Source: Sulfitobacter sp. SK012 (GTDB taxonomy: Bacteria > Pseudomonadota > Alphaproteobacteria > Rhodobacterales > Rhodobacteraceae). Taken from it: a stretch of 64,000 nt of DNA. Position 1 is the stretch's first letter. Every line of letters begins with the position of its first letter. The DNA is taken from NCBI RefSeq assembly GCF_003352085.1, contig NZ_CP025804.1, positions 4,526,001-4,590,000 on the forward strand, written 5' to 3'. Below the pieces are notes generated by a model. That model was not told where the DNA came from. It did not search any database and saw only the letters and a list, made by a program, of their open reading frames with translations. Both the position numbers and the translations under genes were made by a program. Of this stretch, positions 42,559 to 58,627 are shown piece after piece.

Positions 42559-44048
42559 CCGCCACTCATATCCTTGCGATCGACCAAGGGACCACGTCAT
42601 CGCGTGCGATCATCTTTGATGAGGGTATGCACCCCATCGCCTCTGCCCAAGAAGAATTTGAACAGCATTTTCCACAAAGCGGTTGGGTCGAACATGATCC
42701 TTCAGATCTGTGGTCGACAACGGCTGCCACCTGTCGCGCCGCAATCGAAAAGGCGCAGTTGTCTGGCGCAGATATCGCCGCCATCGGGATCACCAATCAG
42801 CGCGAAACGACTGTGGTTTGGGACGCAGAAACCGGCGCGCCATTGCACAACGCTATTGTTTGGCAAGACCGCCGCACGGCTGATTTCTGCCGGACCCTGC
42901 GCGAAGATGGCCATGAACCGATGCTTACCAAGACCACCGGCTTGCTGGCGGATCCGTATTTTTCAGGGACCAAGCTCAAGTGGATCCTTGATCAGCATGA
43001 GGGTTCTCGGGCTCGTGCTGCGCAAGGCAAGCTCTTGTTCGGTACGGTAGACAGCTATCTGATCTGGAAGCTTACCGGTGGTGTCGCGCATGTGACCGAC
43101 GCAACCAACGCTGCGCGGACCCTGCTTTATGACATCCATGCCGGTTGCTGGAGCGAGGAAATCTGCGCCCTATTTGATATCCCAATGCAGATGCTCCCAG
43201 AAGTGCGCGACTGTGCCTCCGACTTCGGAATGACCCGCGCAGATCTGTTTGGCTGTGAAATTCCGATCCTTGGTGTGGCCGGCGATCAACAAGCCGCCAC
43301 CATCGGGCAAGCCTGTTTCGCCCCCGGCATGATGAAATCAACCTATGGCACCGGTTGTTTTGCTCTGTTGAACACAGGCGACACACCGGTCACGTCAAAG
43401 AACCGCCTGTTGACCACCATCGCCTACCAACTAGACGGCAAGCCGACCTATGCGTTGGAGGGATCCATCTTTGTCGCTGGGGCCGTCGTGCAATGGCTGC
43501 GCGACGGGCTTAAACTGATCGACCATGCTTCCGAAACACAACCGCTCGCCGAAGCTGCCGACCCAGAGCAGGACGTCATTTTGGTGCCTGCGTTCGTAGG
43601 CCTTGGTGCGCCTTATTGGAACCCCGATTGCCGTGGCGCAATCTACGGCTTAACGCGCGGCACCGGCCCCTCAGAACTTGCCCGTGCAGCACTTGAAAGC
43701 GTCGGATTTCAGACCCGTGATCTGCTAGAAGCCATGCACGCCGACTGGCAAACAGATGAGGCGGAACCGACCCTGCGCGTGGACGGCGGGATGAGCAATA
43801 GCGACTGGACCATGCAGTTTCTGTCAGACATTATTGGCGCGCCTGTGGATCGACCAATGGTGGTTGAAACAACTGCGCTGGGGGCTGCGTGGCTTGCCGG
43901 ACAGCGCGCCGGGATTTATCCAGACATGCAAGGTTTTGCCGATGCTTGGGCGCTGGAGCGGACCTTCACATCCACGATGGACGACGAAACCAGAGAGGTC
44001 CGGTATGGCGCATGGAAACGTGCGATTAAGGCTACTCTGTCCGTCTAG
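42555..44048 (+). CDS. glpK: Glycerol kinase
   Basis: A 497-residue FGGY-family kinase phosphorylating glycerol, of standard length. [18 protein letters not shown] is the N-terminal phosphate loop, [11 protein letters not shown] a glycerol-kinase landmark, and [18 protein letters not shown] plus [20 protein letters not shown] the central FGGY region. [20 protein letters not shown] is the ATP-site segment near residue 415. The start is GTG, overlapping the glpD stop by four bases. Its TAG forms, on the other strand, the TAG of the convergent iorB: both stops share the palindrome CTAG. Confidence 0.97.
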
Positions 44049-45580
44049 GTAAACGAACGAACTGTCTCTATTGCGCCTGCCAACGCCTTTCCTTCGGGAT
44101 CCTGAAGCGCCGCTTCGCGCAAGCGCGCGATCCAGACTGCTGCATCCTCGCGGCCGTGTAACAACTTGGCCGCGCCCATCACGGTACCGAACTTCGACAG
44201 CCCGCGCACATGCGTGTCAGAATAGCCTTTGACCAAGCGTCGACACTTCAAAAGCTCGACGCTGAGCGCATAATCGTTGCTGAGCGGCGTTAGGCTCTGT
44301 TCTAGCCATTCTTCCATATGTGCTATCTCTATTGCGTGACGGTGGGTGCGCAAACGGTAGCCTTTGAGGCCCCCCAAGAAATGCAGCATCAGATACGCCC
44401 ACAGGCTGTCCGTGCGTAGGCGACGTCCCTTGCCAAACCAGCGGCCCAATTGCGCCATCCGTTTCGGATTTGCTTCAACCCGCGCGCCCATCTTTGCTGG
44501 CAGCATTCCGGCGATCTCCTCAGCGCGGGGGTGGAAAAACTCTGTCAGCTGCATCAGTTGATCATCCTGCGCACCCATCTCTGCTCTGATCCGGTCAAAG
44601 CGCGGACGCCGGGTTTTCAAATCAGCCACCCGGATGATGTCATCATAGGACATCGCATTGGCGATATATTTTGCCGCTGTAATGCTGAGCTTCCAATCAT
44701 GCGCAGCGTCATCTTGCCCGACGATTTCCGCCAGCCTTTCCAGATAGACCGCGCCATAACTGCAATCCTGAAAATTCACGACTTTGCGCAGGCCAGCCTG
44801 TGCCATCTCATGAACACGCTCAGGCAAAGTGCCCACTCTGTTGATGAGTTTTTGCCAGTCCCGCAGCAACACATCGGGCCCAACGATCTGCGCGATTGGC
44901 TTTGCGGCCATTTCAGGCGCGTCAGGCTCACCGTTCTGGGCTGCATCAAACCCCGCAGCAAATGCCCGCAGCGAAGGCTCAACTCCTTTGCCTCCTGCCC
45001 GGATGGCATCCTCAAACATCGCGCGGTCAAACGGTAGTGCGCCGGATCCTGCCAAAGCGCCAAATAAAGACGCGGAAATGACTGAACCTTGCGCGATCGC
45101 CAACTGTTCCATATTCGCCAATATCAGTCTCTGTGCGGCAATTTCGGCTGCGGCGTGCACCTCATCTGCATTGGCTATTCCATCCCCAGGTACCGTTTTT
45201 TCGCTGACTGCCAAAGTGCGATGCGTTGAACCAATCAGCGTTGTTCGATCCGGCGTCACAAAGCCGCGCAATACAGCGCGCCCCACTTCCATCATCTCTG
45301 AGGCGATCAGCACGTCGACGTCGCCGGTCGACGGGGCCAGCGCAAAAATCGGCTGCTGCGCACTGCTTGGGATCATCTCAACATAATAGATCGTGGCCCC
45401 GGTACGCTGCGACACGCCAGCTACGGATGTCGCCTGCACATCATAACCATTGGCCCGCGCCATCCCTTCGATCCAGCCCGTCAGCACGCCGCCGCCTTGC
45501 CCACCAACGGCCATCACTGCCAGCTTTAGGATCTCTCCCATGCGTGCATCAGGGGTCTTTTGCGGTAAAATCAGGTTCAC
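44045..45580 (-). CDS. iorB: Indolepyruvate:ferredoxin oxidoreductase beta-type subunit with a long C-terminal extension
   Basis: About 511 residues from the GTG at 45580, which overlaps the iorA stop as GTGA. The first 190 or so residues are a gamma-type domain of 2-oxoacid:ferredoxin oxidoreductases ([39 protein letters not shown]). The remaining 300 are a helical extension with no motif I can name. Archaeal IorB is only about 200 residues, so this is the long proteobacterial type. With IorA it would oxidatively decarboxylate an aryl or indolyl 2-oxoacid to its CoA ester or acid, reducing ferredoxin. Last gene of the leftward operon. Confidence 0.85.
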
Positions 45581-47724
45581 GCGACATCCTCTAGGCGCAG
45601 GCGTTTTGCATCCCGCTTGGTCTGTAGCCAATCGATCACCTGACTTCGCTTATCGGCCACCCAACGCTCAAATCCGCTGGGATTATGCACCACATCAGCT
45701 CGGTAAAATGAAGGACAGAGCACGGCAGCATCTGCGACTTCGCCGCAATTTCCGCACCCCACACAGGTCTGATCAATATGCGCGACAGGATCATCGCGCA
45801 GCGGGTCATTAAGCCGCTTCAGCGACAAAGACGGACAACCAGAAAGCCGGATGCAAGCGTGGTCCCCGGTGCAAACATCCGCATCAATGCCAAAGCGCGG
45901 AATATCCACCCGCCGTCCTTCTTTGATCGCTTTGTTGCGCAACGGTTTTTCACGCCGCTGCTTGTTCAACATGCATTCAGACGAGGCGACAATCACCTTT
46001 GGCCCTTTAAAATCCGTCGTCAGTGCCTCGTGCAGAACCTCCCGAACTTTGCCGACGTCATAGGTGTGGTCAATCTGGCGTATCCACTCCACACCGACAC
46101 CCTTCAGCGCCGCTGAAATCGGATTATTCGTCGCCTTCGTTGCATTAGGGGCCCGCGAAGATAGCACGTCCTGCCCGCCTGTTGCTGCAGAATAGTAATT
46201 GTCCACGATCACCGCCACGCTGTCGGATTTGTTGAACACCATGTTTCCAATCGACGAACTAAGCCCGTTGTGCCAAAAACCCCCATCCCCCAAGATCGAG
46301 ATCGCGCGCCGCTCCCCGCCCCCATCAAAGGCGGCGTTGGACGCTGGCCCCAATCCATAGCCCATCGTCGATCCGCCAATCTCAAACGGCGGCAAACTGG
46401 CAAATAGGTGGCAGCCGATATCGCCAGTGATCTGGTGTTTGCCTAATTCCTGTTCGGTCAATTTTAGAGCTGCAAAGATGGGGCGTTCCGGGCAACCGGT
46501 GCAAAAGCCAGGTGGGCGAATAGGCACTGTTTTGCTCAGATCAGGTATCTCTGGTTGCGGCGCGTTTGGCGCGCGCACTGCACCGGGTAGCATGTCAGGG
46601 GCAGCGGCACGTAGAAACCAGGTTACGCCATCAAGCATCACCTGACCTGTGTATTCACCCGCCATCGGCAACACGTCTTTGCCATAGAGCTTCAGCTGCC
46701 GTCCCGACTTGAAAAGATACGATCCCAGCTGTTGTTCAATGTGATCAGGCTGGCCTTCTTCCACGATCATCACGTGGTCCTTGCCTTCGCAAAATCCATC
46801 AAATTCGTCTCTAACTATAGGATATGTGACGTTAAGCACATAGATCGGTATGTCGCTTTTCCCGAATACATCCGCCAATCCAAGCCGTTGCAATGCGCGG
46901 ATCAAGCCATTGTACATGCCGCCCTGTACGATGATCCCAAGCGACGCTTTGCTTGGTCCAAACATCTCGTTTAGCTTGTTCTCAACGATGAATTTTTCGG
47001 CCGCGGGCCAGCGATTGTTGATCTTATCCTGCTCATGCAGGTAACTCATGGGCGGCAACACGACACGCGCGAAATCGCTGCGCGGGTTCTCAACTGCTTC
47101 CTTAACCGTCAAGGGCGGTGCCACGTTATCGCGAGTCTCAAAGCTGCCCGTGACGTGGCAAGATCGGATGCGCACCATCAGCATCACTGGCGTATTACTT
47201 GCCTCAGACAGCTCAAAACCGTCTTTCACCGCTTTGGTGATGCTAGGCAGGTTTGGTCGAGGATCCAGCATCCAGAACTGCGACTTCATTGCAAATCCGT
47301 GGCTGCGTTCTTGCATGATCGACGATCCCTCGCCGTAATCTTCGCCGACAATCACCAAAGCTCCACCCGTCACACCTGAGGAGCTGAGATTGGCCAATGC
47401 ATCTGATGCGACATTGACCCCAACAGGCCCCTTAAACGTTACCGCACCCCGGATTGGGTAGTGCACGGAAGCAGCTAACATCGCTGCGGCTGCTGCCTCG
47501 CTTGCGTTGGCCTCGAACCGTACGCCAAGTTCACCCATGAGTTCTTGCGCATCTGCCAATACGTCCATCAAATGGCTGATCGGAGCCCCCTGATACCCGC
47601 CAACATACCCGACACCGTTTTCCAACAGCGCCTTGGTGATCGCCAGAATGCCCTCGCCGGTGAATACATCACCATCACCTTTGCGCAGGTGCTCTACCTC
47701 AGCCTTGAACGAACGTTCAGCCAT
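45577..47724 (-). CDS. iorA: Indolepyruvate:ferredoxin oxidoreductase alpha subunit (TPP and Fe-S)
   Basis: A 715-residue catalytic subunit. An N-terminal pyrimidine-binding domain (VGYVGGYQGAPISHLMDVL, near 38) is followed by a middle segment and a C-terminal TPP-binding domain (TGDIGCHLFASLPPF, and SILGDGGFWHNGLSSSIGN with the GDG motif). At the C-terminus are Cys-rich cluster segments: CTGDHACIRLSGCPSL and CVGCGNC with a later Cys-Pro. This is the 2-oxoacid:ferredoxin oxidoreductase order of IorA. The ATG has AAGGGGGC upstream. It follows marR by nine bases and is coupled to iorB. In this cluster the 2-oxoacid might be isatinate or indolepyruvate; the sequence alone does not decide. Confidence 0.92.
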   Translation of the reverse strand: MAERSFKAEVEHLRKGDGDVFTGEGILAITKALLENGVGYVGGYQGAPISHLMDVLADAQELMGELGVRFEANASEAAAAAMLAASVHYPIRGAVTFKGPVGVNVASDALANLSSSGVTGGALVIVGEDYGEGSSIMQERSHGFAMKSQFWMLDPRPNLPSITKAVKDGFELSEASNTPVMLMVRIRSCHVTGSFETRDNVAPPLTVKEAVENPRSDFARVVLPPMSYLHEQDKINNRWPAAEKFIVENKLNEMFGPSKASLGIIVQGGMYNGLIRALQRLGLADVFGKSDIPIYVLNVTYPIVRDEFDGFCEGKDHVMIVEEGQPDHIEQQLGSYLFKSGRQLKLYGKDVLPMAGEYTGQVMLDGVTWFLRAAAPDMLPGAVRAPNAPQPEIPDLSKTVPIRPPGFCTGCPERPIFAALKLTEQELGKHQITGDIGCHLFASLPPFEIGGSTMGYGLGPASNAAFDGGGERRAISILGDGGFWHNGLSSSIGNMVFNKSDSVAVIVDNYYSAATGGQDVLSSRAPNATKATNNPISAALKGVGVEWIRQIDHTYDVGKVREVLHEALTTDFKGPKVIVASSECMLNKQRREKPLRNKAIKEGRRVDIPRFGIDADVCTGDHACIRLSGCPSLSLKRLNDPLRDDPVAHIDQTCVGCGNCGEVADAAVLCPSFYRADVVHNPSGFERWVADKRSQVIDWLQTKRDAKRLRLEDVA

Positions 47725-47733
47725 AGTGCCCCC

Positions 47734-48216
47734 TTAGAAATCATGTTTGCGTATGTTGCGCAGCATGGTTTGCAGCGTCCCGACAAAGGCACGCTTTTCC
47801 ACGTCATCAATACCTGCAAACATTTGCTCGTAGGCTGCTGACATATGCGGCCAAAGCCGCTCGTAGGCATCACGCCCTGCGTCCCTAAGGAACACGCGCG
47901 TGGCCCGGCTGTCTTCCGTATCGGTCTCGCGACGGATCATCCCGCCTTGGTCCAGCGCATCCAATGCCCGGCTCAGCGTGCTTTGTTGCACGACCGCGTA
48001 AACGGCCAGTTCTCGTATAAGGATGCCGTCGATCACTGACAAAACAGCCAATGAACGTGCCTGCGGAGTTGTTAAATCCAATGCCGCCATCTCGCTTTGT
48101 AGCGCGGCGTTATATCGCCCGATGATGCGGTTCATCAGATAGGGGGCAAAGTTTTCCAGCCCCATTTCGCCCAATCGATGCACTTGGGGGGTCGCGATTT
48201 TTTGCTGCTTCGTCAT
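47734..48216 (-). CDS. MarR-family transcriptional regulator
   Basis: A 160-residue winged-helix regulator. The recognition region has DGILIRELAVYAVVQQSTLSRALDALDQGGMIRRETDTEDSRA, a clear MarR wing ending in DSRATRVFL. MarR proteins usually repress aromatic-compound catabolic genes and release DNA on binding the compound. Its stop and start overlap its neighbours (ATGA with the upstream flavoprotein), so it sits within the operon it probably controls: cyclase, flavoprotein, marR, iorA, iorB. The target is likely the divergent promoter near 50.6 kb. Confidence 0.92.
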   Translation of the reverse strand: MTKQQKIATPQVHRLGEMGLENFAPYLMNRIIGRYNAALQSEMAALDLTTPQARSLAVLSVIDGILIRELAVYAVVQQSTLSRALDALDQGGMIRRETDTEDSRATRVFLRDAGRDAYERLWPHMSAAYEQMFAGIDDVEKRAFVGTLQTMLRNIRKHDF

Positions 48217-49775
48217 GCGCCAAGCCCTTTCGCGAGGTTATAGCCCGATCCACCGCCCAATCCCGGCCCGGGGTGGGTTGAAGCACCAATGTGATAAAAA
48301 CCTTTAATCGAGGTTGCGTTGTTGGCCGATCCGGCATGCGGTCGCCAGACAAAAAACTGGTCTAGCGCGCAGGCACCGCCGTAAGGATCGCCCCCAACAA
48401 GGTTCACATTCATCGCCTCCAGATCAGCGGGCGAATAGGCACGGCGTTTGAGAACAATGTCGTCAAAATTACGGATACTCTTGCGCAAGATACCTTCGAT
48501 ACGGTCGGCATAGACCTCGCGCATGGCCTCGGTCCAAGTCTCTTCTGTTTCAATCTCTCCTGCGGCATCGCCCTTGATCTGGGTCGGGCTGTCTGGGATC
48601 TGACACCACAAGATCGCTTTGCCTTCAGGGCAGCGCGTCGGGTCAAGGGCGTGAGGCTGGCCAACACAGATCGTTGGCGTCACAGGGATCATGCCCCGCT
48701 CTGCCTCATTGCTTGATTTAGAGACTGAATCGATTCCATCAGAGAGATGGATCAGCGCGACGTCATCCAATCCATCTGCCACCCAATCAGGTGTTGCATC
48801 CAGCGCATAGTGCAGCTGGAAGTTTCCGCGCCCATGACGAAATTTCTTGGGGCTGTCAGAGCGCATGGAACTATCGAGCAAGCTATCGTCCAGCTGTCTA
48901 GGTGCAGTGGATGCAATGACATTTTTAGCACGGATCTTTTCGCCAGAAACAGTCTCTATCCCTACTGCTTTACCGCCTTCGACAATAACTCTCTTGGCCT
49001 CTACGCCGGTCCGACATTCTCCGCCATGCGCCTCTATCAGAGTCTCAAAGGCGACGACCGCTTGCCCTGCGCCGCCCTTCACAATTGGCGCGCCAGCTGC
49101 CTCCAACGCAAAAGCAATCACCCGCGCCATCTGCCCAGAATAACTCGCCTCAGGCGTCAATCCGACATGCAGAACCCACGGAGCCCAAAGCGCCTGCACC
49201 GACACGCTGTCATAGCGAGTTTCCAACCAACCACGTGCGGGTTCCAGTGCCTCACCGAACCAGACTTTGAGGTCATTGAGGCCTCTTTTCCATGCTTGCT
49301 TTGCCAACAATGTCGCCGTTTGGCGTGACCAAAGCGGCTGCCCTAACAGCGCAAAAAGAAACGGCGCATCTTGTTCAATGCGCCCAACATCTGCCGCGTG
49401 CTGATCTCCGGCTCCGGCGCTTGTTGCATTGAATGCGGCCACATTGGCGGCGCGATCCATTGACAACACAAGCGCCTCACCATTTGGACGCAGCACCGCC
49501 GTTGGATTTGGTGAATGGCAAAACTCCAGCCCATGTTGCGCCAAATCTGCCCCCAACGCTTCATGCGCGGAGCCAGTTAGAAACAGGACAAATGTTGTGG
49601 CCATCACATCATGATGAAAGCCGGGCAACGTCACGTCATCAGACGTCATCATGCAGCCACCCAAGCGATCTTCGCGGTCGATCACCAGCACGCTATCGCC
49701 TTTGCGCGCTAACATCGCGGCGGCCACCAAACCGTTAATGCCCGACCCGATGATCAGATGATCGACGTCCGCCAC
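48213..49775 (-). CDS. Phytoene-desaturase-like FAD/NAD(P)-dependent oxidoreductase (leftward copy)
   Basis: A 520-residue flavoprotein. The start is GTG with AGGACTGAGGC upstream. DHLIIGSGINGLVAAAMLARKGDSVLVIDREDRLGGCM is the FAD fold with GSGxxG and RxGG. The C-terminus is GFYHIGASTHPGPGLGGGSGYNLAKGL, the carotenoid-desaturase/amine-oxidase closing motif. These proteins form a large group outside carotenoid synthesis with mostly unknown substrates; there is no carotenoid gene nearby. It is three bases after the cyclase stop and overlaps marR by four bases. A second member of the group starts the divergent operon, so two related redox steps, or a heteromer, seem likely. Confidence 0.88.
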   Translation of the reverse strand: MADVDHLIIGSGINGLVAAAMLARKGDSVLVIDREDRLGGCMMTSDDVTLPGFHHDVMATTFVLFLTGSAHEALGADLAQHGLEFCHSPNPTAVLRPNGEALVLSMDRAANVAAFNATSAGAGDQHAADVGRIEQDAPFLFALLGQPLWSRQTATLLAKQAWKRGLNDLKVWFGEALEPARGWLETRYDSVSVQALWAPWVLHVGLTPEASYSGQMARVIAFALEAAGAPIVKGGAGQAVVAFETLIEAHGGECRTGVEAKRVIVEGGKAVGIETVSGEKIRAKNVIASTAPRQLDDSLLDSSMRSDSPKKFRHGRGNFQLHYALDATPDWVADGLDDVALIHLSDGIDSVSKSSNEAERGMIPVTPTICVGQPHALDPTRCPEGKAILWCQIPDSPTQIKGDAAGEIETEETWTEAMREVYADRIEGILRKSIRNFDDIVLKRRAYSPADLEAMNVNLVGGDPYGGACALDQFFVWRPHAGSANNATSIKGFYHIGASTHPGPGLGGGSGYNLAKGLGA

Positions 49776-49778
49776 GCC

Positions 49779-50570
49779 TCAGTCCTTAGGGACCAACGCC
49801 AGCGCCCGTATCGGACTGCCGGTACCCTTTGCGATCTTCAGCGGCGCGGCAATCAAGACCGCACCTTTGGCAGGCAGCTTGTCTAGATTTGCAAGGCTCG
49901 CCAGCCCAAAGCAATTATCGCGGTGCAGTAGGTTGTGCGCCGGGTAAGGCGGCTCCATTCCGCCAGCCTGCCCTGCATCTGTTCCAATGCACTGGGTTCC
50001 CCAACCGACGATCTTCTTGCTTAGCAAGTATTCGATCGCATCAGGGGTCGGCCCAGGGCTGTGGGGACCTGTGTCATCGGCATTTAGAAACTTCGCCTCG
50101 TCATCTACACGGCTGTCCCAGTCGGTGCGCATCACGACCCATTCGCCTGCGCCAATATCGCCCTGCTCTTTTTCCCACGCCTTGATCAGGTCAGCGGTCA
50201 GCAAAAAATCTTCGTTTGCCGCACTTTCTGCGGAGCAATCAATAACATTCACTGGCGCGATAAGGCGGTTCACATCCAAGGTGTCAGTGTAGCCGTCCTC
50301 ATAATCCTTGCCGGTGACCCAGTGATGCGGCGCGTCAAAATGCGTGCCAGAGTGTTCGCCCAACACCAGCCAGTTCCACGCAAAGAAAGGCCCGTCATTG
50401 TCGTATTCAGAAATCTTGTGAATCTCGACCTTTGGCGTGGGTTTCGCAAAGTCAGCGGGCAGCTGCAGGATCGGCGTATCAGGACCAAGCGATCCTGAAC
50501 AATCCACCACCTCGACCCCGCCCGTGGCCAGCATTTTTCCCAATTCGCCCAACAATGAAGCAGCGCTCAT
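49779..50570 (-). CDS. Cyclase-family metal hydrolase, probable isatin hydrolase-like
   Basis: About 263 residues from the ATG at 50570 (GGGAGACGGG upstream). The cyclase-family metal motif HxGTHxDxPxH is exact: HSGTHFDAPHH near residue 80. The DTLDVNRLIAPVNVIDC and CIGTDAGQAGGM segments continue the fold. The family includes kynurenine formamidase (KynB) and isatin hydrolase. The segments around EIHKISEYD, GPFFAWNW and the NLLHRDNCFGLASL tail look to me like the isatin hydrolase subgroup, from memory and not from a search. That enzyme opens isatin to isatinate. First gene of the leftward operon with MarR and IorAB, which suits breakdown of an indole-derived compound. Confidence 0.8.
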   Translation of the reverse strand: MSAASLLGELGKMLATGGVEVVDCSGSLGPDTPILQLPADFAKPTPKVEIHKISEYDNDGPFFAWNWLVLGEHSGTHFDAPHHWVTGKDYEDGYTDTLDVNRLIAPVNVIDCSAESAANEDFLLTADLIKAWEKEQGDIGAGEWVVMRTDWDSRVDDEAKFLNADDTGPHSPGPTPDAIEYLLSKKIVGWGTQCIGTDAGQAGGMEPPYPAHNLLHRDNCFGLASLANLDKLPAKGAVLIAAPLKIAKGTGSPIRALALVPKD

Positions 50571-50679
50571 AATCCCGTCTCCCTGAGTTTGCACAGTTTC
50601 GCCCGCGCAGTGTTTCCTGAATCAATGCTAGACAAATTTACATGCGTTTGCAATTATCTTGTCGAGGGGATGCAAAGCA
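50571..50679. promoter_or_regulatory. Divergent promoter region of the indole-type catabolic cluster
   Basis: The 109-base gap between the cyclase start and the flavoprotein start must hold two promoters and the likely MarR operator. It contains GACAA (50631-50635) and TTGTC (50659-50663) facing each other around an AT-rich stretch with TTTGCAATTA. The dyad arms are short and far apart, so the exact operator is not defined. Confidence 0.4.
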
Positions 50680-52251
50680 ATGAGCGAAGATCCGGATGCA
50701 ATAATCATCGGGGCTGGTCACAATAGTTTGGCTTGCGCTTGCCACTTGGCAGCGCGCGGCTGGAAGGTCGCCGTCTATGAACAGGCCTCCGTACCTGGCG
50801 GTGCAGTCAAGACAGGCGAGTACACCCTTCCTGGATTTCGCCATGATTGGGCGGCGATGAATCTCTCGCTCTTTGCAGGGTCTGCTTTTAATAGTGAGTA
50901 TGCGGACGATCTGGCCAAACATGGTCTGCGTTTTGCACCAACATCCAACCCCTTTGCGTCTGTTTTTCCAGACGGAAAATGGCTGGGCGTCTCTGCCGAT
51001 GCAGCGCTGACAAAGGCGCGTGTTCGCGGGTTTTCAAACGCAGATGCAGCGGCTTGGCAACAACTAACGGATGACTTCCCCAGTGAAGCTGAGGATATAT
51101 TTGCCCTACTTGGCAGCCCCATGAATTTGCGTGCAATTTCATCTTTAGGCTGGAAGACTTGGCGCAAACGGCACGGGGCTGGCACACTTGATCTTGCGCG
51201 GTTTTTGATGATGTCGCCCCGTGCGTGGCTCGATCAGACCTTTGAAAGCGACCACGTCAAAGCAACACTTGCTGCATGGGGCATGCATTTGGATTTCGCG
51301 CCTGACATCGCAGGCGGCGCACTCTTTCCGTACCTTGAGGCGATGGCTGGACAGGCCTTTGGCATGGTTTTGGGCCAAGGTGGCGCGGATACAATGACCC
51401 GTTCGATGGTATCAATGATCAAAGCGCGTGGCGGCGACGTGATTTGTAACAGCCCCGTGGAACGCATCGACCACCGAGAAGGGAAAGCTTACGGGATTAC
51501 GCTAGCCGACGGTCAGCGGGTGATGGCGAGCAAAGCCGTAATCGCCAATGTCGCGCCGGCAGCCTTGGCCAAGCTTACTGGCGACATCGGGGATGCGCGC
51601 CACACAGATGCGATGCAGAAATTCCAGCATGCTCCGGGCACAATGATGATCCACCTTGCGATGGACGGCCTGCCGGACTGGACCGCGGGGGCTGAGTTGA
51701 AACGTTTTGCTTATGTTCATATCGCGCCCTCCATGGACCAGATGGCGCAGGCATATGCGCAAGCGAAAGCAGGCCTACTGCCGTCTGAGCCGGTGATCGT
51801 TTGCGGTCAACCGACGGTGGTCGACCCCACCCGTGCGCCTGCGGGCAAACATGTTCTTTGGCTTCAGGTTCGCATGGTACCGGGGCAGATTAAGGGCGAC
51901 GCTTTGAATCAAATAGCAGCGACCAATTGGCAAGACGCAGCGGAGCCGATGGCGGCCCGTACGCTGGATATTCTGGAGCGCTACGCCCCCGGTACCGGCG
52001 CTAAGATCTTAGCCAAGCATATTGTCAGCCCGGCCATGTTAGAGACGGATAATCCTAATCTTGTTGGTGGTGATCAAGTCTGTGGGAGCCACCATCTTCA
52101 CCAACATTTCATGAACCGTCCCGCGCGCGGGTACGCCGATGGAAAGACGCCAATCAAAAACCTTTATCACACTGGTGCCGCTGTTTGGCCCGGTGGCGGA
52201 ACGGGAGCAGGGCCCGGCACTTTGCTCGCCAAAAAACTTGCCGGAAAATAA
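50680..52251 (+). CDS. Phytoene-desaturase-like FAD/NAD(P)-dependent oxidoreductase (rightward copy)
   Basis: About 523 residues from the ATG at 50680, which has GAGGGG upstream; a TTG seven codons earlier is unlikely. FAD binding at AIIIGAGHNSLACACHLAARG with YEQASVPGGAVKT; C-terminal closing motif YHTGAAVWPGGGTGAGPGTLLAKKL. It belongs to the same group as the leftward copy, and both carry a similar central substrate-domain layout (near HDVMATT and HDWAAMN). No carotenoid genes are present. It leads the operon containing a five-gene peptide-type importer, with the binding-protein gene 21 bases downstream. Confidence 0.88.
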   Translation: MSEDPDAIIIGAGHNSLACACHLAARGWKVAVYEQASVPGGAVKTGEYTLPGFRHDWAAMNLSLFAGSAFNSEYADDLAKHGLRFAPTSNPFASVFPDGKWLGVSADAALTKARVRGFSNADAAAWQQLTDDFPSEAEDIFALLGSPMNLRAISSLGWKTWRKRHGAGTLDLARFLMMSPRAWLDQTFESDHVKATLAAWGMHLDFAPDIAGGALFPYLEAMAGQAFGMVLGQGGADTMTRSMVSMIKARGGDVICNSPVERIDHREGKAYGITLADGQRVMASKAVIANVAPAALAKLTGDIGDARHTDAMQKFQHAPGTMMIHLAMDGLPDWTAGAELKRFAYVHIAPSMDQMAQAYAQAKAGLLPSEPVIVCGQPTVVDPTRAPAGKHVLWLQVRMVPGQIKGDALNQIAATNWQDAAEPMAARTLDILERYAPGTGAKILAKHIVSPAMLETDNPNLVGGDQVCGSHHLHQHFMNRPARGYADGKTPIKNLYHTGAAVWPGGGTGAGPGTLLAKKLAGK

Positions 52252-52272
52252 TAACAATCAGGGAGATTACAA

Positions 52273-53799
52273 ATGAAACTTTCACGCAGAGGCCTTCTCA
52301 AGACATCCGCCGCGGCCGCGGCATTTACCACCATCGGCCTACCTAGTTTTGCCCAGGCGATTGACGAGCTGGTCATTGCCTATAACGTCAATCTGCCCAG
52401 CTGGGACCCGACTGTTGGACCCTCCGCAGTGAACCCGACGATCCAGGGCATCTATCAGTCTGTATTTGATCTTTATATCCCACAAAACCCTGACCTCAGC
52501 TTTGGATCTGGCATCATTGCGGATCATGGCTGGAATGATGACGAGAGCCAAATCTGGATGGATGTGCGCGAAGGTGTAACCTGGCACAACGGTGATCCGC
52601 TGACGGCCGAGGATGTTGTTTGGTCGTTGCAACGTGCCGCCAACCCAGAGACAGGGAACCCAATCCAGTTTGTCTGGGGCAAAGTTGAAAACATCAAAGC
52701 CGAAGGCAACCGCGTGACGGCGGACGTCAAGGAGTATGAGCCTACGTTCTTCAAATGGATGAGCTTTCTCACAGGCTATGTCATGCCCAAGAAATACTAC
52801 GAGGAAGTTGGCGCAGACGGGTTTGAAGCGGCCCCCATCGGAACCGGCCCCTACATGGTCGATAAATTCGAACGCAATGCGTTTGTGCGCCTGAAAGCCA
52901 ATGAAAACTATTGGGGCGGGGCACCGGAATTCAAAACCGTGACAATCAAGTTCGTGACAGACGCGGCGTCCCGGGTGGCCGAGGTCGAATCTGGCAATTC
53001 CCATGTGACGCTTGAAATTCCTTATGAGGAGTTTGACCGCCTCAAGGCCAAAGATGGTTTGGCCGGTGTAGCGGAACCCATCTCTGATATTGGGATGATT
53101 TTCCTCAACGATATTGATGCGATGGCCGATCCAAATGTGCGCAAGGCCGCCGCCCACGCCATCGACAAATCGCTGATCGTAGACCGATTGCTGTCGGGTT
53201 ACGGCGTGCCAATCGACACACTGCAAACGCCAGATTACGCAGCATACGATCCGTCGATCACCGTTGAGTATAACCCGGAGAAATCGATTGAGTTGTTGGC
53301 GGCCTCAGGATTTAGCCCAGACAACCCTGTCAAGTTTACGATCCAAACGACGAAGGGCTTCAAGCCTAAGGACTATGAGATCATTCAGGCGATTGTTGGC
53401 CTTTGGCGCAAGGTCGGGATCGAGGCAGAAATCGAGGTTTACGAGATCGCAAAGCACTTTGAACTGCGCGCCGCAGATCAGCTCGCACCGGCGGCCTTCT
53501 ACAACTGGGGCAATTCGGTGGGTGATCCAACGACCTCAACCGGCTTTGCGATGTTTGGTCCATCGCCGCACTCTGTTTGGGACGGTCAGGATACCTTCGA
53601 TCTAATCGCGCCGCTTTGGGGCGAAAAAGACGAGGCCAAGCGCATTGCTGGCTGGAAGGCAGTCGACCGGCACATCGCCGAAGAGGCTGAGGTTATTCCA
53701 CTGCTGCAGTACGTCCAGCCGATCGTGCATTCCGATGCCGTGACGGTTCAACCTCATCGCTCAGGGGCGCTGCTTCCGCACCTCATGACACGCTCGTAA
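52273..53799 (+). CDS. ABC transporter substrate-binding protein (peptide/Opp family 5)
   Basis: A 508-residue periplasmic binding protein of the extracellular solute-binding family 5 type. The N-terminus MKLSRRGLLKTSAAAAAFTT has a twin-arginine, so export may be through Tat, with a signal cleaved near FAQA. GVTWHNGDPLTAEDVVWSLQRA and IGTGPYMVDKFERNAFVRLKANENYWGG are family landmarks. Members bind peptides, glycosides, opines and various amides, so the ligand is open. GGGAGA precedes the ATG. It is followed by two permeases and two ATPases, giving a full importer in one operon. Confidence 0.92.
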   Translation: MKLSRRGLLKTSAAAAAFTTIGLPSFAQAIDELVIAYNVNLPSWDPTVGPSAVNPTIQGIYQSVFDLYIPQNPDLSFGSGIIADHGWNDDESQIWMDVREGVTWHNGDPLTAEDVVWSLQRAANPETGNPIQFVWGKVENIKAEGNRVTADVKEYEPTFFKWMSFLTGYVMPKKYYEEVGADGFEAAPIGTGPYMVDKFERNAFVRLKANENYWGGAPEFKTVTIKFVTDAASRVAEVESGNSHVTLEIPYEEFDRLKAKDGLAGVAEPISDIGMIFLNDIDAMADPNVRKAAAHAIDKSLIVDRLLSGYGVPIDTLQTPDYAAYDPSITVEYNPEKSIELLAASGFSPDNPVKFTIQTTKGFKPKDYEIIQAIVGLWRKVGIEAEIEVYEIAKHFELRAADQLAPAAFYNWGNSVGDPTTSTGFAMFGPSPHSVWDGQDTFDLIAPLWGEKDEAKRIAGWKAVDRHIAEEAEVIPLLQYVQPIVHSDAVTVQPHRSGALLPHLMTRS

Positions 53800-53856
53800 A
53801 AGCGACCCGGTGGTGCTGGCAAAGGTTGGCTCCACCGTATTTCAAACCGGATTCCC

Positions 53857-54867
53857 ATGAAACTTTTGCGCACTATCCTATTGCGGCTCATCAGCACCGC
53901 GATCACGCTCTTTGGCGTGGCGGTGATTGTGTTTGTTGTTGTGCGTGTTGTGCCAGGCAATCCGATTGCAATGATGCTTCCGCCCGGCGCGACAGATGCT
54001 GATATCCTCCGGTTAGAGACACAATATGGCCTTGATAAATCAATCTTGCAGCAATTCTTGATCTGGTTTTTTGATGTCTTGAAGGGCGACTTTGGCACAT
54101 CAATCACAACGCGGCAGCCTGTCTCTGGCCTGGTGCTGGGGCGTCTGCCCGCAACGTTAGAGTTGTCGATTGTGGCGTTGGGTATCGCCGTAGCGCTTGG
54201 GGGTGCTCTTGCCCTTGCCGGAACCCGGTTTCGCGATGGTAAGGCCGAGGGCGCGATTGATGTGACGTCTGGCATCGCCCTTTCAGTTCCGGACTTCTTG
54301 TGGGGATTGGTGTTGATCTTGCTATTTGGCGTGCTTTGGCCCGTCTTTCACATCTCAGGGCGCATTTCCCCCAGTTTAGACATTGATTTCACCACCAACT
54401 TCTATTTATTCGAGAGCATTGTGCGGCTGCGTTTCGATGTATTCAGCGACCTGATCGCGCATATGCTGATGCCCGCCCTAGCCCTTGCCATTCCGCTGGC
54501 GGCGATCATTTCACAACTTCTGAAACAGTCTCTGAAAGAGACAATGCACCTTGATTACGTCGCCCTCGCCCGCACCAAGGGTTATTCCGAGACGCACGTC
54601 ATCGTCCATGAAGCCTTGCCCAACGCGATCCTTCCGACACTGACACTTGTTGGGGTCCAGTTTACTTTTCTGATTGGCGGCACAGTCATTATCGAGCGCC
54701 TTTTTAGCTACGAAGGGCTTGGCAATATGGCTATCGACGCGGTCATCAACCGGGACCTTCCATTGATCCAAGGCATCGTGATCCTGTTTGCGGTCCTCTT
54801 TACGATGGTCAATCTCTTTGTCGACATGCTGTATGTTGTTCTCAACCCGAGGCTGCGAAATGCGTGA
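53857..54867 (+). CDS. ABC importer permease, DppB/OppB type
   Basis: A 336-residue inner-membrane permease. The N-terminal helix and first loop (VRVVPGNPIAMMLPPGA, then GLDKSILQQFLIWFFDVLKGDFGTSI) are characteristic of DppB-like subunits. The BPD coupling segment EALPNAILPTLTLVGVQFTFLIGG lies near 250. About six membrane spans. It begins 57 bases after the binding-protein gene and overlaps the next permease by eight bases. Confidence 0.93.
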   Translation: MKLLRTILLRLISTAITLFGVAVIVFVVVRVVPGNPIAMMLPPGATDADILRLETQYGLDKSILQQFLIWFFDVLKGDFGTSITTRQPVSGLVLGRLPATLELSIVALGIAVALGGALALAGTRFRDGKAEGAIDVTSGIALSVPDFLWGLVLILLFGVLWPVFHISGRISPSLDIDFTTNFYLFESIVRLRFDVFSDLIAHMLMPALALAIPLAAIISQLLKQSLKETMHLDYVALARTKGYSETHVIVHEALPNAILPTLTLVGVQFTFLIGGTVIIERLFSYEGLGNMAIDAVINRDLPLIQGIVILFAVLFTMVNLFVDMLYVVLNPRLRNA

Positions 54868-55711
54868 CGCGCGGGGAACCCTCAGGCGCCCCTTGGGAGT
54901 GCGGCTCTGGCTTTCGGGCGGTTGGCTTCTCGTCCTTGCATTCGTTGCAATATTGGCGCCTTGGCTCGCGCCCCAAGACCCCCTTGCCCAAGACCTGTTT
55001 ACTGCACGCCTCCCGCCTTTTTGGGAGCCCGGATCTGAGCCGGGATACTACCTTGGCACCGATTCGTTGGGTCGGGATGTCCTGACGCGCATCATCTATG
55101 GGGCACGTTTGGCCTTAATCGTCGCCGTTGTTGCGGGAACGCTGACATGCGTGATTGGAGCCACACTCGGCCTTATCGCAGGGTACTACCGTGGCTGGCC
55201 AGACCGTATCATCAGCCGCTTCGTCGATATTTGGATGGCCTTCCCGCCGGTTCTTTTTGCAATTCTACTTATTGCCGTTCTTGGCACCGGCCTGACCTCC
55301 ATCATCCTTGCGATTATCATTATCGACTGGACCCGCTTTGCGCGCGTGATCCGCGCCGAAGCGATGGGGCAATCCGCGATGGACTATGTCGCCTCCGCGC
55401 AGATCGCCGGGCGTACCCGGTTTGGCACAATGCTGACTGAAATCCTGCCTAATGTTTTGCCAACAATTGTGGCTCTACTTACGCTGGAAATGGGCATCGC
55501 CGTTATCGTCGAGGCGATCTTGTCTTTCGTTAATCTGTCGATCTCAACCGACAGCCCAACGTGGGGCGGTATGATCTCAGAGGGGCGCACATCCGTGCAT
55601 CAGGCCTGGTGGGTCCTCGTCTTTCCGCTAATCACGCTCTTTCTCACCGTTCTGAGTTTTTCGCAATTGGGCGAGGGTCTCAAAGATCGCTTTGATCCGG
55701 TGCTTCGATGA
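54860..55711 (+). CDS. ABC importer permease, DppC/OppC type
   Basis: About 283 residues from the ATG at 54860, which overlaps the end of the dppB-like gene by eight bases. The N-terminal helix and LGTDSLGRDVLTRIIYGARLALIVAVVAG are standard DppC signatures. ILPNVLPTIVALLTLEMGIAVIVEAILSFV gives the coupling helices with the ATPase. Pairs with the upstream DppB-type subunit. Stop overlaps the next ATPase gene start as ATGA. Confidence 0.93.
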   Translation: MRDARGTLRRPLGVRLWLSGGWLLVLAFVAILAPWLAPQDPLAQDLFTARLPPFWEPGSEPGYYLGTDSLGRDVLTRIIYGARLALIVAVVAGTLTCVIGATLGLIAGYYRGWPDRIISRFVDIWMAFPPVLFAILLIAVLGTGLTSIILAIIIIDWTRFARVIRAEAMGQSAMDYVASAQIAGRTRFGTMLTEILPNVLPTIVALLTLEMGIAVIVEAILSFVNLSISTDSPTWGGMISEGRTSVHQAWWVLVFPLITLFLTVLSFSQLGEGLKDRFDPVLR

Positions 55712-56556
55712 CCGCGTATCTGTCCATCAGAGGTCTGACCGTGACGCTAAAAGGGGGGGGCGTGATACTTCGCGACGTCTCTTTGGATGTGGCTGCGGGG
55801 CAGGTCCATGGGTTGGTGGGCGAATCTGGTGCGGGCAAGTCGATGATTGGTAAAGCAGTCTTGGGCACCTTGCCCCGCGCGATGCAAATCACGAGTGGAG
55901 AGATTTGGCTCGATGGCATTGATTTGCTTGGCCTGCCCTCTCGCAGACGGCGGCATCATATTGGGGCCAGCGCCGCGCTGATCCCACAAGACCCATTGAC
56001 CGCATTGAACCCTGTCCGCCGTGTTGGTCCGCAGATTACACGCCGATTGGTCGACATTTTGGGCTGGACCCGCAGCGCGGCGCAAAGCCGCGCGTTAGAG
56101 TTGCTGGATGAGGTCCAAATCCCAGACCCCAGCCGGGTCATGCGCAGCTATCCACACGAACTGTCGGGAGGTATGCGCCAGCGCATCTTGATTGCAGCTG
56201 CCTTTGCGGCCGAACCGAAGCTTATCATCGCTGATGAGCCGACAACCGCCTTGGACGTAACCGTGCAAAAACAAATCCTGCGCCTGATCGCGCAGATGCA
56301 AACGCGTCATGACACAGCGCTTTTGTTTGTCACGCATGACCTGGGCGTGGTGTCAAAAATCTGCGATTCCCTGTCGGTACTTTACGCTGGAAAAGTCATT
56401 GAAGAAGCCCAAATGCGTGCCTTCTTTGCCGCGCCCAAGCATCCCTATTCTGCCGCTCTACTTGCAGCCACACCAACCCATACAAATCCCGAAAGCAGCT
56501 TAACCCCCGTCCCTCAAGCCATCATCGACGCCGTGGAGGCAGAGGTCAGATCATGA
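55708..56556 (+). CDS. ABC importer ATPase, DppD type
   Basis: A 282-residue ATP-binding subunit. Walker A is [13 protein letters not shown], the signature motif [16 protein letters not shown], and Walker [14 protein letters not shown], followed by the H-loop FVTHDLGVV. The C-terminal oligopeptide-transporter segment ([14 protein letters not shown]) marks it as peptide-type. Coupled to the following ATPase gene by an ATGA overlap. The two ATPases form the heterodimer that drives uptake through the two permeases. Confidence 0.95.
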
Positions 56557-57347
56557 TGTATGAAGTACGCGATCTTCATCTGTCTTTGCCCGATCGGGCT
56601 AGAAAACCATTGTTGGGCCCCGCCCCTCGCATCGAGATCCTCAAAGGGCTGAGCTTTGATATCCCGGCCGGATCCGTAACCGGGATTGTCGGTGGGTCAG
56701 GTTCGGGTAAATCCACGCTGGGTCGTGCTATGTTGCGCTTGTTAGAGCCTACGCGCGGCCAAGTGTCTTTTGATGGCACCGACATCACGCATCTGCCTGA
56801 GGAAAGCCTGCGGCCCCTAAGACGGCGTTTCCAGATGATTTTTCAGGACCCAATGTCATCACTCAATCCCCGCCGCCGTGTGGGCGGGATCATCGCGGGC
56901 CCGCTTAAGCTGCATGGCTTGGATAAAGTGCGCGCACGCGTGGCCGAAGCGTTGGAGATGGTGGGCCTGCCGCATAGCTTTGCTGAGCGCTATCCACATG
57001 AACTGTCTGGGGGCCAACGTCAGCGTGTTGGCATTGCGCGCGCGATTGCGCTGCGCCCCGACTTTATTCTCGCCGATGAAATTGTATCGGGTCTGGATGT
57101 GTCCAGCCAAGCACAGGTACTGAACCTACTCGGTGACCTCGTGTCAGATTTGGGCCTGACCGTCGCTTTCATCAGTCACGATCTCTCGGTTATTCGCCGG
57201 CTTTGCACGGACGTAATCGTGCTTCATGACGGGGTTATTGTGGAGCAGGCAAAGACAAAGACGCTGTTTGCGGCACCCCAAGCGGATTATACTAAGGGCC
57301 TGCTTGCGGCGATCCCCTTGCCCGACGCTGACCAACCTTGGGACTAG
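56553..57347 (+). CDS. ABC importer ATPase, DppF type
   Basis: A 264-residue ATP-binding subunit. Walker A GGSGSGKSTLGRAM, signature HELSGGQRQRVGIARAI, Walker B FILADEIVSGLD with the uncommon Ile-Val in place of the usual Pro-Thr or Pro-Val, and H-loop FISHDLSVI. The N-terminal region includes GLSFDIPAGSVTGIVG. It ends the importer genes; a 164-base gap follows before the kynureninase-like gene. Confidence 0.94.
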   Translation: MMYEVRDLHLSLPDRARKPLLGPAPRIEILKGLSFDIPAGSVTGIVGGSGSGKSTLGRAMLRLLEPTRGQVSFDGTDITHLPEESLRPLRRRFQMIFQDPMSSLNPRRRVGGIIAGPLKLHGLDKVRARVAEALEMVGLPHSFAERYPHELSGGQRQRVGIARAIALRPDFILADEIVSGLDVSSQAQVLNLLGDLVSDLGLTVAFISHDLSVIRRLCTDVIVLHDGVIVEQAKTKTLFAAPQADYTKGLLAAIPLPDADQPWD

Positions 57348-57511
57348 ATGCGATGGACGACCAATCTTTTTGGCCCGACACATCGCAAATCGCATCGTGT
57401 TTCTGGCTTCTAGCAATACTTCCTTACCCAACAGGCGTCACTGGATTGGTCAAGCTTTGGGCCCCGAACTACGCTAACTATTTCGTTAAGGACAATTCGA
57501 TATGAGGGCCC

Positions 57512-58627
57512 ATGACTGATCCTGCCTACTTTCTCTATCACTCCATTGGCCAGTATCCGGAAAAATTGGCGGATATGGCGGCTGCCTTTGCGGAATTTTC
57601 GGACCTTTGGGGAGCCGTAGATGACGCACAATGGCCGCGCGCTTTGACTGCACGCGCTGAGTTCTTGTCGCTTTGGTCAGACCTGATCAATGCGCCGGAT
57701 GGTACGTTAACCTCGGCCGAAAACGTCACGACCGCGCTTTATTCCATCATCGGCGGATTGCCGGAAGGGCGCTTGCGGGGCAAAAAGGTGTTGATCGCTG
57801 CAGATTGCTTTCCCTCGCTGCATTTCTTGCTGAATGGGCTGGCGGCACGCATGGGGTTTACCCTGCATACTGTGCCGATCCGGACACGTGAGTTCTGGGT
57901 ACGCGACGAAGACATGATTGCCGCTTGGGGCCCAGATGTTGGCCTTGCTTTGCTGACGATGGTGACGTCCACATCTTCTCATCGATGTGACTTGAATGCG
58001 CTGCTGGCGCAGGGTCGCGCGATGGGGTCGCTTGTGGGCGTGGACCTTACGCAGGGCATTGGAATTGTCCCGTTTTCACTGCAAGAAGTGCCGGCAGATT
58101 TTGTCGTATCAACCACGCTGAAATGGCTGTGTGGCACGCCGGGCGCTGGAATCATCCAAGTGCGCGAGGAATTGATAGATCAATGCACGCCCGAGCTGCG
58201 TGGTTGGTTCAGTCAGGACAATCCGTTCTCCTGGGACCTCGACGCTTTTTCTTATGCACCCGATGCGCGGCGGTTTGAGCACGGAACTCCCTCAGTTTTG
58301 GCCTGCATAGGCTCTGTTCCTGCCATGCGTTGGCACGCACAGCAGGAGGGGTTGCTGGCCCATAACCGAACCCTAACCAAAGCGATTATTGAACGCGCTG
58401 ATGCGATGGGGCTGACCCTTGCAAGCCCACGAGATGCAGCGCATCGCGGCGGATCGATCATGCTTAAGTTGGCGGATACGGTTGCAAGCGGTGCATTGGT
58501 GGACAGCTTGCGTGCGAAAGGCGTTCATGTGGACGCGCGTGGCCAAATTCTCCGCCTATCACCCGGAATAGTGACGAATTTTGATCACGTAGATCGGCTT
58601 TTCGCAGGGTTAGCCACTGCTGTTTAA
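57512..58627 (+). CDS. Kynureninase-like PLP enzyme (class V aminotransferase fold)
   Basis: A 371-residue fold-type I PLP protein. PLP sites: the Asp contacting the pyridine nitrogen in VGVDLTQGIGIV (about 171-182), the Schiff-base Lys in STTLKWLCGTPG (about 201-212), and FSWDLDAFSYAPDARRFEHGTPS near 244. The last resembles the kynureninase segment that ends ...R-F-x-x-G-T-P. Kynureninase cleaves kynurenine to anthranilate and alanine; here it is short of the usual 410 or more, so kynureninase-like is the safe call. It lies 164 bases after the importer ATPase on the same strand. The position after an isatin-hydrolase-like divergon supports aminophenyl-type chemistry. Confidence 0.78.
   Translation: MTDPAYFLYHSIGQYPEKLADMAAAFAEFSDLWGAVDDAQWPRALTARAEFLSLWSDLINAPDGTLTSAENVTTALYSIIGGLPEGRLRGKKVLIAADCFPSLHFLLNGLAARMGFTLHTVPIRTREFWVRDEDMIAAWGPDVGLALLTMVTSTSSHRCDLNALLAQGRAMGSLVGVDLTQGIGIVPFSLQEVPADFVVSTTLKWLCGTPGAGIIQVREELIDQCTPELRGWFSQDNPFSWDLDAFSYAPDARRFEHGTPSVLACIGSVPAMRWHAQQEGLLAHNRTLTKAIIERADAMGLTLASPRDAAHRGGSIMLKLADTVASGALVDSLRAKGVHVDARGQILRLSPGIVTNFDHVDRLFAGLATAV

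Follow-up and report, generated by a model that had tools for sequence, protein, structure and literature searches.

Which substrate is handled by the two divergent operons at positions 44045-58627 of the DNA analyzed here, and do both halves of this divergon serve the same pathway? The DNA, referred to as the window, is a stretch of 64,000 nucleotides from Sulfitobacter sp. SK012 (contig NZ_CP025804.1, positions 4,526,001 to 4,590,000), whose genome has a size of 5.18 Mb. In an earlier note on this stretch, the operons were described as diverging at about 50.6 kb and were interpreted as a system for the uptake and catabolism of an indole- or isatin-type compound. All twelve genes were confirmed at the described place and strand. 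With a probability of about 60%, both operons form a single catabolic unit that is controlled by MarR and centred on isatin and that would lead from import via isatin and isatinate to 2-aminobenzoyl-coenzyme A (2-aminobenzoyl-CoA). The earlier observation is confirmed, and the earlier interpretation is partly supported.

The left operon (reverse strand) has the gene order cyc, fad1, marR, iorA, iorB. The right operon (forward strand) consists of fad2, the gene of a substrate-binding protein (sbp), two permease and two ATPase genes of an ATP-binding cassette (ABC) importer and a kynureninase-like (kynU-like) gene. Gene starts were adjusted by eye, using relatives and ribosome-binding sites. The junctions in the left operon were found to be a gap of 3 bases (cyc/fad1), an overlap of 4 (fad1/marR), a gap of 9 (marR/iorA) and an overlap of 4 (iorA/iorB), which agrees with the described overlaps or gaps of less than ten bases. 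In the right operon, gaps of 21 bases (fad2/sbp) and 57 bases (sbp/permease) are followed by overlaps of 8, 4 and 4 bases. The kynU-like gene lies 164 bases beyond the last ABC gene and is hence loosely attached. The divergon is flanked by glycerol-phosphate and glycogen genes.

The gene cyc (49779-50570, reverse strand, ATG start) had been noted as encoding an isatin-hydrolase-like cyclase. This assignment could be sharpened, since the product is an ortholog of isatin hydrolase B, for which the conversion of isatin to isatinate is predicted from sequence. It matches the structures 4J0N and 4M8D of isatin hydrolase B in the PDB at 6.5e-158 and is 86% identical to the ortholog of Roseibium (Labrenzia) aggregatum IAM 12614 (locus L040), which in turn is identical to 4J0N across 262 residues. 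The similarity to characterised isatin hydrolases extends over the full length, and the stretch HSGTHFDAPHH is conserved. An assignment as true arylformamidase (KynB, TIGR03035) was rejected with 33.7 bits against a cut-off of 223.05. The proposed ring opening of isatin is likewise supported by these comparisons. In R. aggregatum, the gene sits in the same divergon: fad2 and the ABC genes lie to one side of it, and the other side carries fad1, marR, iorA and iorB, followed by a kynU-like gene. No difference between the two systems is known. The accessible part of PMC6117287 contains neither the word "operon" nor "gene cluster". The divergon provides the crystallised isatin hydrolase B with a gene context, namely a regulated operon and a predicted following step.

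For the analysis of conservation, the best 80 of 254 confirmed stretches in genome contigs were examined with up to 10 kb on each side. Gene ends in these relatives are approximate, as they stem from a codon-usage caller, which in one case (L170) hid cyc beneath an overlong fad2 frame. The core genes cyc, marR, iorA and iorB were linked in 64 of the 68 loci with at least 7 kb downstream, so that cyc and iorAB are not located in unrelated places. MarR was found in 76 of the 80 loci, and four loci (L016, L074, L080, L084) each lack at least one of marR, iorA and iorB. The core occurs together with iad-type genes (see below), with flavoproteins and ABC genes or with the kynU-like gene alone. The full set of cyc, fad1, marR, iorA, iorB, fad2 and five ABC genes is present in 40 of 63 loci with long flanks on both sides. 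Both flavoprotein genes were found together in 51 of 72 loci, and fad1 without fad2 in three (L042, which is short, L062 and L080). For the 22 loci without a nearby fad2, the whole genomes were searched, resulting in no match in 20 cases and a match elsewhere in two. None of six flank genes of the window (glp, glg, cupin) was detected at more than 40% identity in any of the 80 loci while the set itself is conserved, which indicates that the unit travels as a block.

This linkage is also visible across the order Rhodobacterales. Among 244 genomes, 29 possess isatin hydrolase B (at least 62% identity), and fad2 and the kynU-like gene were identified in 23 each; one copy of the latter (genome G147) is only 31% identical. 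The hydrolase is present in 22 of the 23 fad2 genomes and in 20 of the 23 kynU-like genomes; counted by genus (100 genera), this applies to 14 of 15 and 11 of 13, respectively. These co-occurrence statistics ignore phylogeny. The distance between fad2 and cyc is below 8 kb in 20 of the 22 genomes possessing both.

The regulator gene marR (47734-48216, reverse strand; PF01047) encodes the presumed repressor of the divergon. A putative MarR operator, TTGCAAACGCATGTAA, is located at 50638-50653 (reverse strand) inside the divergent promoter region of 109 bases. A related site with at most 3 mismatches was found before cyc in 79 of 79 relatives across all three gene arrangements; 52 of these sites are exact, a count that is partly circular because the pattern was derived from the same cyc upstream sequences. 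The remaining one of the 80 loci (L072) was excluded, since its upstream stretch is too short. In random 200-base windows of the same loci, the site occurred in 1 of 1,475 at up to one mismatch and in 72 of 1,475 at up to three. Within the SK012 genome, the site is unique at fewer than 2 mismatches, with 28 others at exactly 2; the reversed control pattern yielded 15 matches in all. When the window was scanned less strictly, two more matches with 3 mismatches appeared, which is not above chance, and a search for perfect palindromes before cyc revealed no half-site common to more than 4 loci.

Two relatives with a split divergon connect this site with both operons. In S. delicatus, a distance of 148 kb separates cyc from fad1, fad2 and the binding-protein gene, and in Sulfitobacter sp. 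DSM 110093, fad2 is about 63 kb from iorA. In both, the gap between the displaced fad1 and fad2 retains the site with one mismatch. Because the moved flavoprotein/ABC half keeps the site in these two cases, both halves look like one regulon, and we regard this as the strongest evidence that they belong together. We infer that MarR binds at the putative operator. A chance grouping of neighbours was rejected on the basis of conservation, shared site and co-occurrence, and the suggestion of one pathway in the earlier note gains from the linked core and from the site on both halves of the split loci.

The step after isatin hydrolysis would be taken by IorAB. The gene iorA (45577-47724, reverse strand; PF02775) encodes the alpha subunit of a thiamine-diphosphate 2-oxoacid:ferredoxin oxidoreductase, and iorB (44045-45580, reverse strand, GTG start) a beta-type subunit with POR and DUF6537 domains. 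IorB passed the beta-family model NF006179 with 661 bits (cut-off 348) and is, by description, of the same family as IadB of the iad locus. IorA is 77.7% identical to the IorA next to an iad-type set in Paracoccus saliphilus, and a sequence search of the PDB with IorA gave 0 matches. Isatinate is 2-aminophenylglyoxylate, an aryl 2-oxo acid, and thus belongs to the substrate class of such ferredoxin-linked decarboxylating enzymes. For this reason, the ferredoxin-linked decarboxylation assumed previously would fit.

An exit for the product could be located elsewhere in the genome. In Azospirillum and, together with a thioesterase, in Caballeronia, the vicinity of the iorAB homologs includes a gene whose annotation is bifunctional salicylyl-CoA 5-hydroxylase/oxidoreductase. 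The SK012 genome contains a homolog of this protein with 1285.9 bits (curated cut-off 1078), an NF006101 homolog which we take to be a 2-aminobenzoyl-CoA monooxygenase/reductase. Its cluster includes a kynureninase (253.8 bits, above the cut-off of 246.4), homologs of tryptophan 2,3-dioxygenase (379 bits) and benzoate-CoA ligase (362.3 bits), both slightly under their cut-offs of 390.7 and 375.25, and genes for an acyl-CoA dehydrogenase, an enoyl-CoA hydratase and a short-chain dehydrogenase/reductase (SDR). Judged by these genes, 2-aminobenzoyl-CoA is probably usable by this genome. The predicted entry point of the IorAB product is the aerobic 2-aminobenzoyl-CoA pathway, but the entry would be from isatinate without a CoA ligase. 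The same cluster (L133, 174-18022) also carries ABC genes and a MarR-type gene and adjoins an IS21 element.

In Ruegeria pomeroyi, Shinella and Caballeronia (L096, 7084-18240; L097, 6996-16215; L100, 12001-22700), iorA, iorB and a thioesterase gene are clustered with genes for a cupin, an FAH hydrolase, a carbon-nitrogen hydrolase and an Asp/Glu racemase. The cupin of L097 is similar to gentisate/5-aminosalicylate dioxygenase, and such clusters may represent a ring-cleavage route of the 5-hydroxyanthranilate type. On a plasmid of Variovorax WDL1 (L099, 12001-18301), iorA is followed, as far as genes are annotated, by an IS1071 transposase, and the annotation shows no iorB there.

The isatin branch as such is known from the iad locus, described for the degradation of indole-3-acetate in Variovorax, Bradyrhizobium and Achromobacter in the accessible parts of PMC9613470 and PMC12633357. 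There, the subunits of indolepyruvate ferredoxin oxidoreductase, iorB/iadB and iotA/iadA, are given as exclusive markers of iad-like operons, and the route passes through isatin to anthranilate (PMC9613470); iadI is annotated as kynurenine formamidase, and the early steps were revised (PMC12633357). The divergon shares with iad the IorA- and IorB-type subunits, a comparison by family and not with the Variovorax sequences, the marR gene beside iorA (as iadR beside iadA/iadB) and a hydrolase (cf. iadI). Unlike iad, it contains two flavoproteins, a peptide-type ABC importer and a kynureninase-like enzyme. Neither a Rieske oxygenase (iadDE) with its reductase (iadC) was detected among the divergon genes or scanned neighbours, nor a CoA ligase or thiolase (iadF, iadG) among the divergon genes, a search for the latter two that did not extend to the whole genome. 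At the level of sequence families, the back half of the divergon resembles the isatin branch of iad, whereas the Rieske front end is missing.

Relatives illustrate how this front end varies; iad labels on them refer to annotated families and gene order, and no Variovorax or Bradyrhizobium iad sequence entered the comparison. In Paracoccus saliphilus, cyc-marR-iorA-iorB adjoins a reductase, a Rieske oxygenase pair, a CoA ligase, a thiolase, an SDR and a tripartite ATP-independent periplasmic (TRAP) transporter. This neighbour set is, by family, an iadCDEFG-type front end, and the site before cyc is present with one mismatch. In seven Sulfitobacter/Roseobacter loci, the kynU-like gene alone stands opposite cyc and diverges from it across the site. 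No fad2 was found in these seven genomes (E 1e-100), three of which are metagenome-assembled, and no IadD-type protein in the four of them that were searched (E 1e-50). In Leisingera (L055), a TRAP transporter gene follows iorB, and two further loci (L054, L068) have genes of equal size at this place.

As for the flavoproteins, fad1 (48213-49775, reverse strand) and fad2 (50680-52251, forward strand) encode paralogs of the CrtI/CrtO type with 36% identity, and Fad2 has weak PDB matches to 4dgk and 4rep. An interpretation as plain carotenoid genes was rejected, since both missed the curated cut-offs of the CrtO model NF045689 (150 and 212 bits for fad1 and fad2; cut-off 1000) and of the CrtI model (91 and 111 bits; cut-off 238). 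The importer comprises a substrate-binding protein of family 5, peptide/opine type (52273-53799; PF00496 with 240.8 bits, PDB relatives including DppA and AccA), permeases of the OppB/DppB type (53857-54867) and OppC/DppC type (54860-55711) and two ATPases (55708-56556 and 56553-57347), all on the forward strand.

The last gene of the right operon (57512-58627, forward strand; PF00266, KYNU_C) encodes a class-V pyridoxal phosphate (PLP) enzyme, which was tried as a true kynureninase and rejected, as it reached 58.6 bits against a cut-off of 246.4 (TIGR01814). It shares with kynureninase the class-V family, the PLP lysine and the C-terminal domain, but the motifs FPSD/FPTD, DLAHS and TYKYLNGGPG of three kynureninases (one passing TIGR01814 and two chosen by similarity to it) were altered. 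Instead, FPS-x-HF, D-x-TQ and LKW-x-CG were found in at least 95% of 28 kynU-like sequences. A further difference is the fusion to isatin hydrolase in relatives. Head-to-tail fusions of 656-674 amino acids were identified in five genomes of three genera of Rhodobacterales. Among the best 120 of 1,989 matches to one fusion, in a search that scored only the 7,995 candidates sharing most words, both domains were present in every one at 72-88% identity. The link to kynureninase drawn in the earlier note therefore holds in part: it gained by the fusion to isatin hydrolase and lost by the missed cut-off and motifs.

All five fusion genomes also carry a separate cyc(-fad1)-marR-iorA-iorB locus, and no iorAB adjoins the fusion itself. 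In three fusion loci (L130-L132), a peptide-type ABC importer and a gene of 460-474 amino acids (an M20 peptidase in L130) precede the fusion, and a gene of 364 amino acids (a cupin in L130) follows it. Two Paraburkholderia plasmids (L160, 6253-11352; L161, 6216-11352) possess a cassette of M20 peptidase, transporter, kynU-like gene and cupin; L130 (7258-12659) has the same cassette, except that the fusion replaces the kynU-like gene and the peptidase is preceded by ABC genes. The cupin partner gave one PDB match, to a hypothetical protein, and no NCBIfam match at E 1e-20. In L128 (4158-6723), a cytochrome P450 gene and a glutamine-synthetase-like gene lie ahead of the fusion.

By gene arrangement, the fusions and the minimal loci place the kynU-like enzyme beside the predicted isatin step. 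Since PLP chemistry normally requires an amino acid, the substrate is likely an oxidised tryptophan. Kynureninase itself carries out a retro-aldol cleavage. As a tentative idea, with the odds clearly against it, the enzyme may have a new function: it would cleave dioxindolylalanine, or its ring-opened form, in a retro-aldol reaction to isatin or isatinate and alanine and hand the product directly to isatin hydrolase, so that roseobacters would possess an isatin hub with interchangeable front ends. If this were true, the hub, fed by auxin, by flavoproteins with importer or by a PLP lyase, would recover oxidatively damaged tryptophan from algae and detritus. No assigned reaction was found for this kynureninase-like family, many sequences of which are fusions with isatin hydrolase.

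Taken as one unit, the divergon would work as follows. The peptide-type ABC system would import an indole-type or oxidised-tryptophan compound. The two flavoproteins may oxidise the import, and/or the kynureninase-like PLP enzyme may cleave its amino-acid form, giving isatin (or isatinate). Isatin hydrolase would open isatin to isatinate, which IorAB would convert by oxidative decarboxylation to 2-aminobenzoyl-CoA and reduced ferredoxin. The product would enter the 2-aminobenzoyl-CoA monooxygenase-type cluster elsewhere in the genome, and a compound of the pathway most likely releases MarR. The whole would function as the isatin branch of iad under a different front end.

Several results weigh against this reading. 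IorA reached only 267 bits in the IOR alpha equivalog model TIGR03336 (cut-off 650.9), a large distance that weakens any assignment of its substrate. According to the accessible part of PMC12633357, a Variovorax iad deletion mutant given iadC-K2 without iadAB regained anthranilate, so that in this organism the step does not depend on IorAB. For fad1 and fad2, no known reaction was found in the searches run. A fad2 homolog of Mesorhizobium loti (54.5%) lies with similar ABC genes, and neither isatin hydrolase nor iorAB is annotated within 19.6 kb; other relatives of fad2, in Agrobacterium and Cedecea, have unlike neighbourhoods. The kynU-like gene is missing from 7 of the 23 fad2 genomes, lies between transporter and cupin genes in Paraburkholderia and is located a few kb from a gene of the tryptophan 2,3-dioxygenase family in Alloyangia pacifica (L164, 4866-10122). 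These other contexts of fad2 and the kynU-like gene weaken the claim that each part always serves isatin. Concerning the regulator, none of the five fusion loci gave a site within 2 mismatches, and among the five core loci that these genomes carry separately, L169 has no site and L167 only a match with 2 mismatches. The kynU-like gene of the window, 164 bases from the ABC genes, has no site of its own. As a side observation, the Alloyangia kynU-like gene comes after amino-acid ABC genes.

If the divergon were an auxiliary auxin locus, it would serve indole-3-acetate or its conjugates and supplement iad with an importer for conjugates and another isatin hydrolase. This is consistent with Tateyamaria omphalii (L022, L136), in which the divergon is nested between iadCDEF-type and iadH/iadG-type genes and a second hydrolase is present, and with an iadCDEFGH-type set at about 8 kb (genome G192) and about 19 kb (genome G107) from the divergon. 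In these three Rhodobacterales genomes, however, the iad-type set comes with a separate hydrolase of the other type. An IadD-type Rieske subunit was identified in 19 of 44 locus genomes and on two plasmids with iad-type sets (46 searched in total, 44 of them from the 80 locus genomes, with L067 left out), but not in the other 25. None of the three Rieske oxygenase loci of the SK012 genome matches the IadD-type protein of Paracoccus or Azospirillum, and a complete iad pathway in this genome was rejected for lack of such a match. An auxiliary auxin role is unlikely here.

A kynurenine-type route, in which the hydrolase acts on N-formylkynurenine, the PLP enzyme converts kynurenine to anthranilate and IorAB is separate, would make the fusion a match for two consecutive steps; it would also agree with the lack of iorAB near the fusion loci and with the tryptophan dioxygenase gene in Alloyangia. 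The hydrolase family includes kynurenine formamidase, to which cyc has a weak PDB match, but the score of cyc is far below the arylformamidase cut-off, and the protein crystallised as isatin hydrolase B is an ortholog of its product. The PLP enzyme stays under the cut-off for kynureninase and does not show the conserved motifs, a separate kynureninase above the cut-off exists in the genome, and IorAB, a member of the operon, would be left without a role. We consider this route quite unlikely. Detoxification of isatin or quenching of its signal, instead of carbon or nitrogen catabolism, appears very improbable: isatin is bioactive and MarR regulators frequently respond to aromatic toxins, but the dedicated importer, the CoA-type decarboxylating enzyme and the likely 2-aminobenzoyl-CoA cluster suggest that the compound serves as a nutrient.

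The combination had been thought undescribed. This stands for the front end, for which no description was found: among the matches listed, no title or abstract of the open-licence literature deals with this gene combination. It does not stand for the MarR, the IorA/IorB types and the hydrolase, which are known from iad in the accessible parts of PMC9613470 and PMC12633357. The novelty thus lies in the front end, which appears undescribed. Under the isatin-centred reading, marine bacteria appear to use the isatin-to-aminobenzoyl branch of auxin degradation as a portable module and to attach it to other substrates. Two records of the survey, titled as a Blastopirellula metagenome-assembled genome (L056) and Nocardioides marinus (L066), bear Rhodobacterales-like divergons and are probably mislabelled or contaminated.

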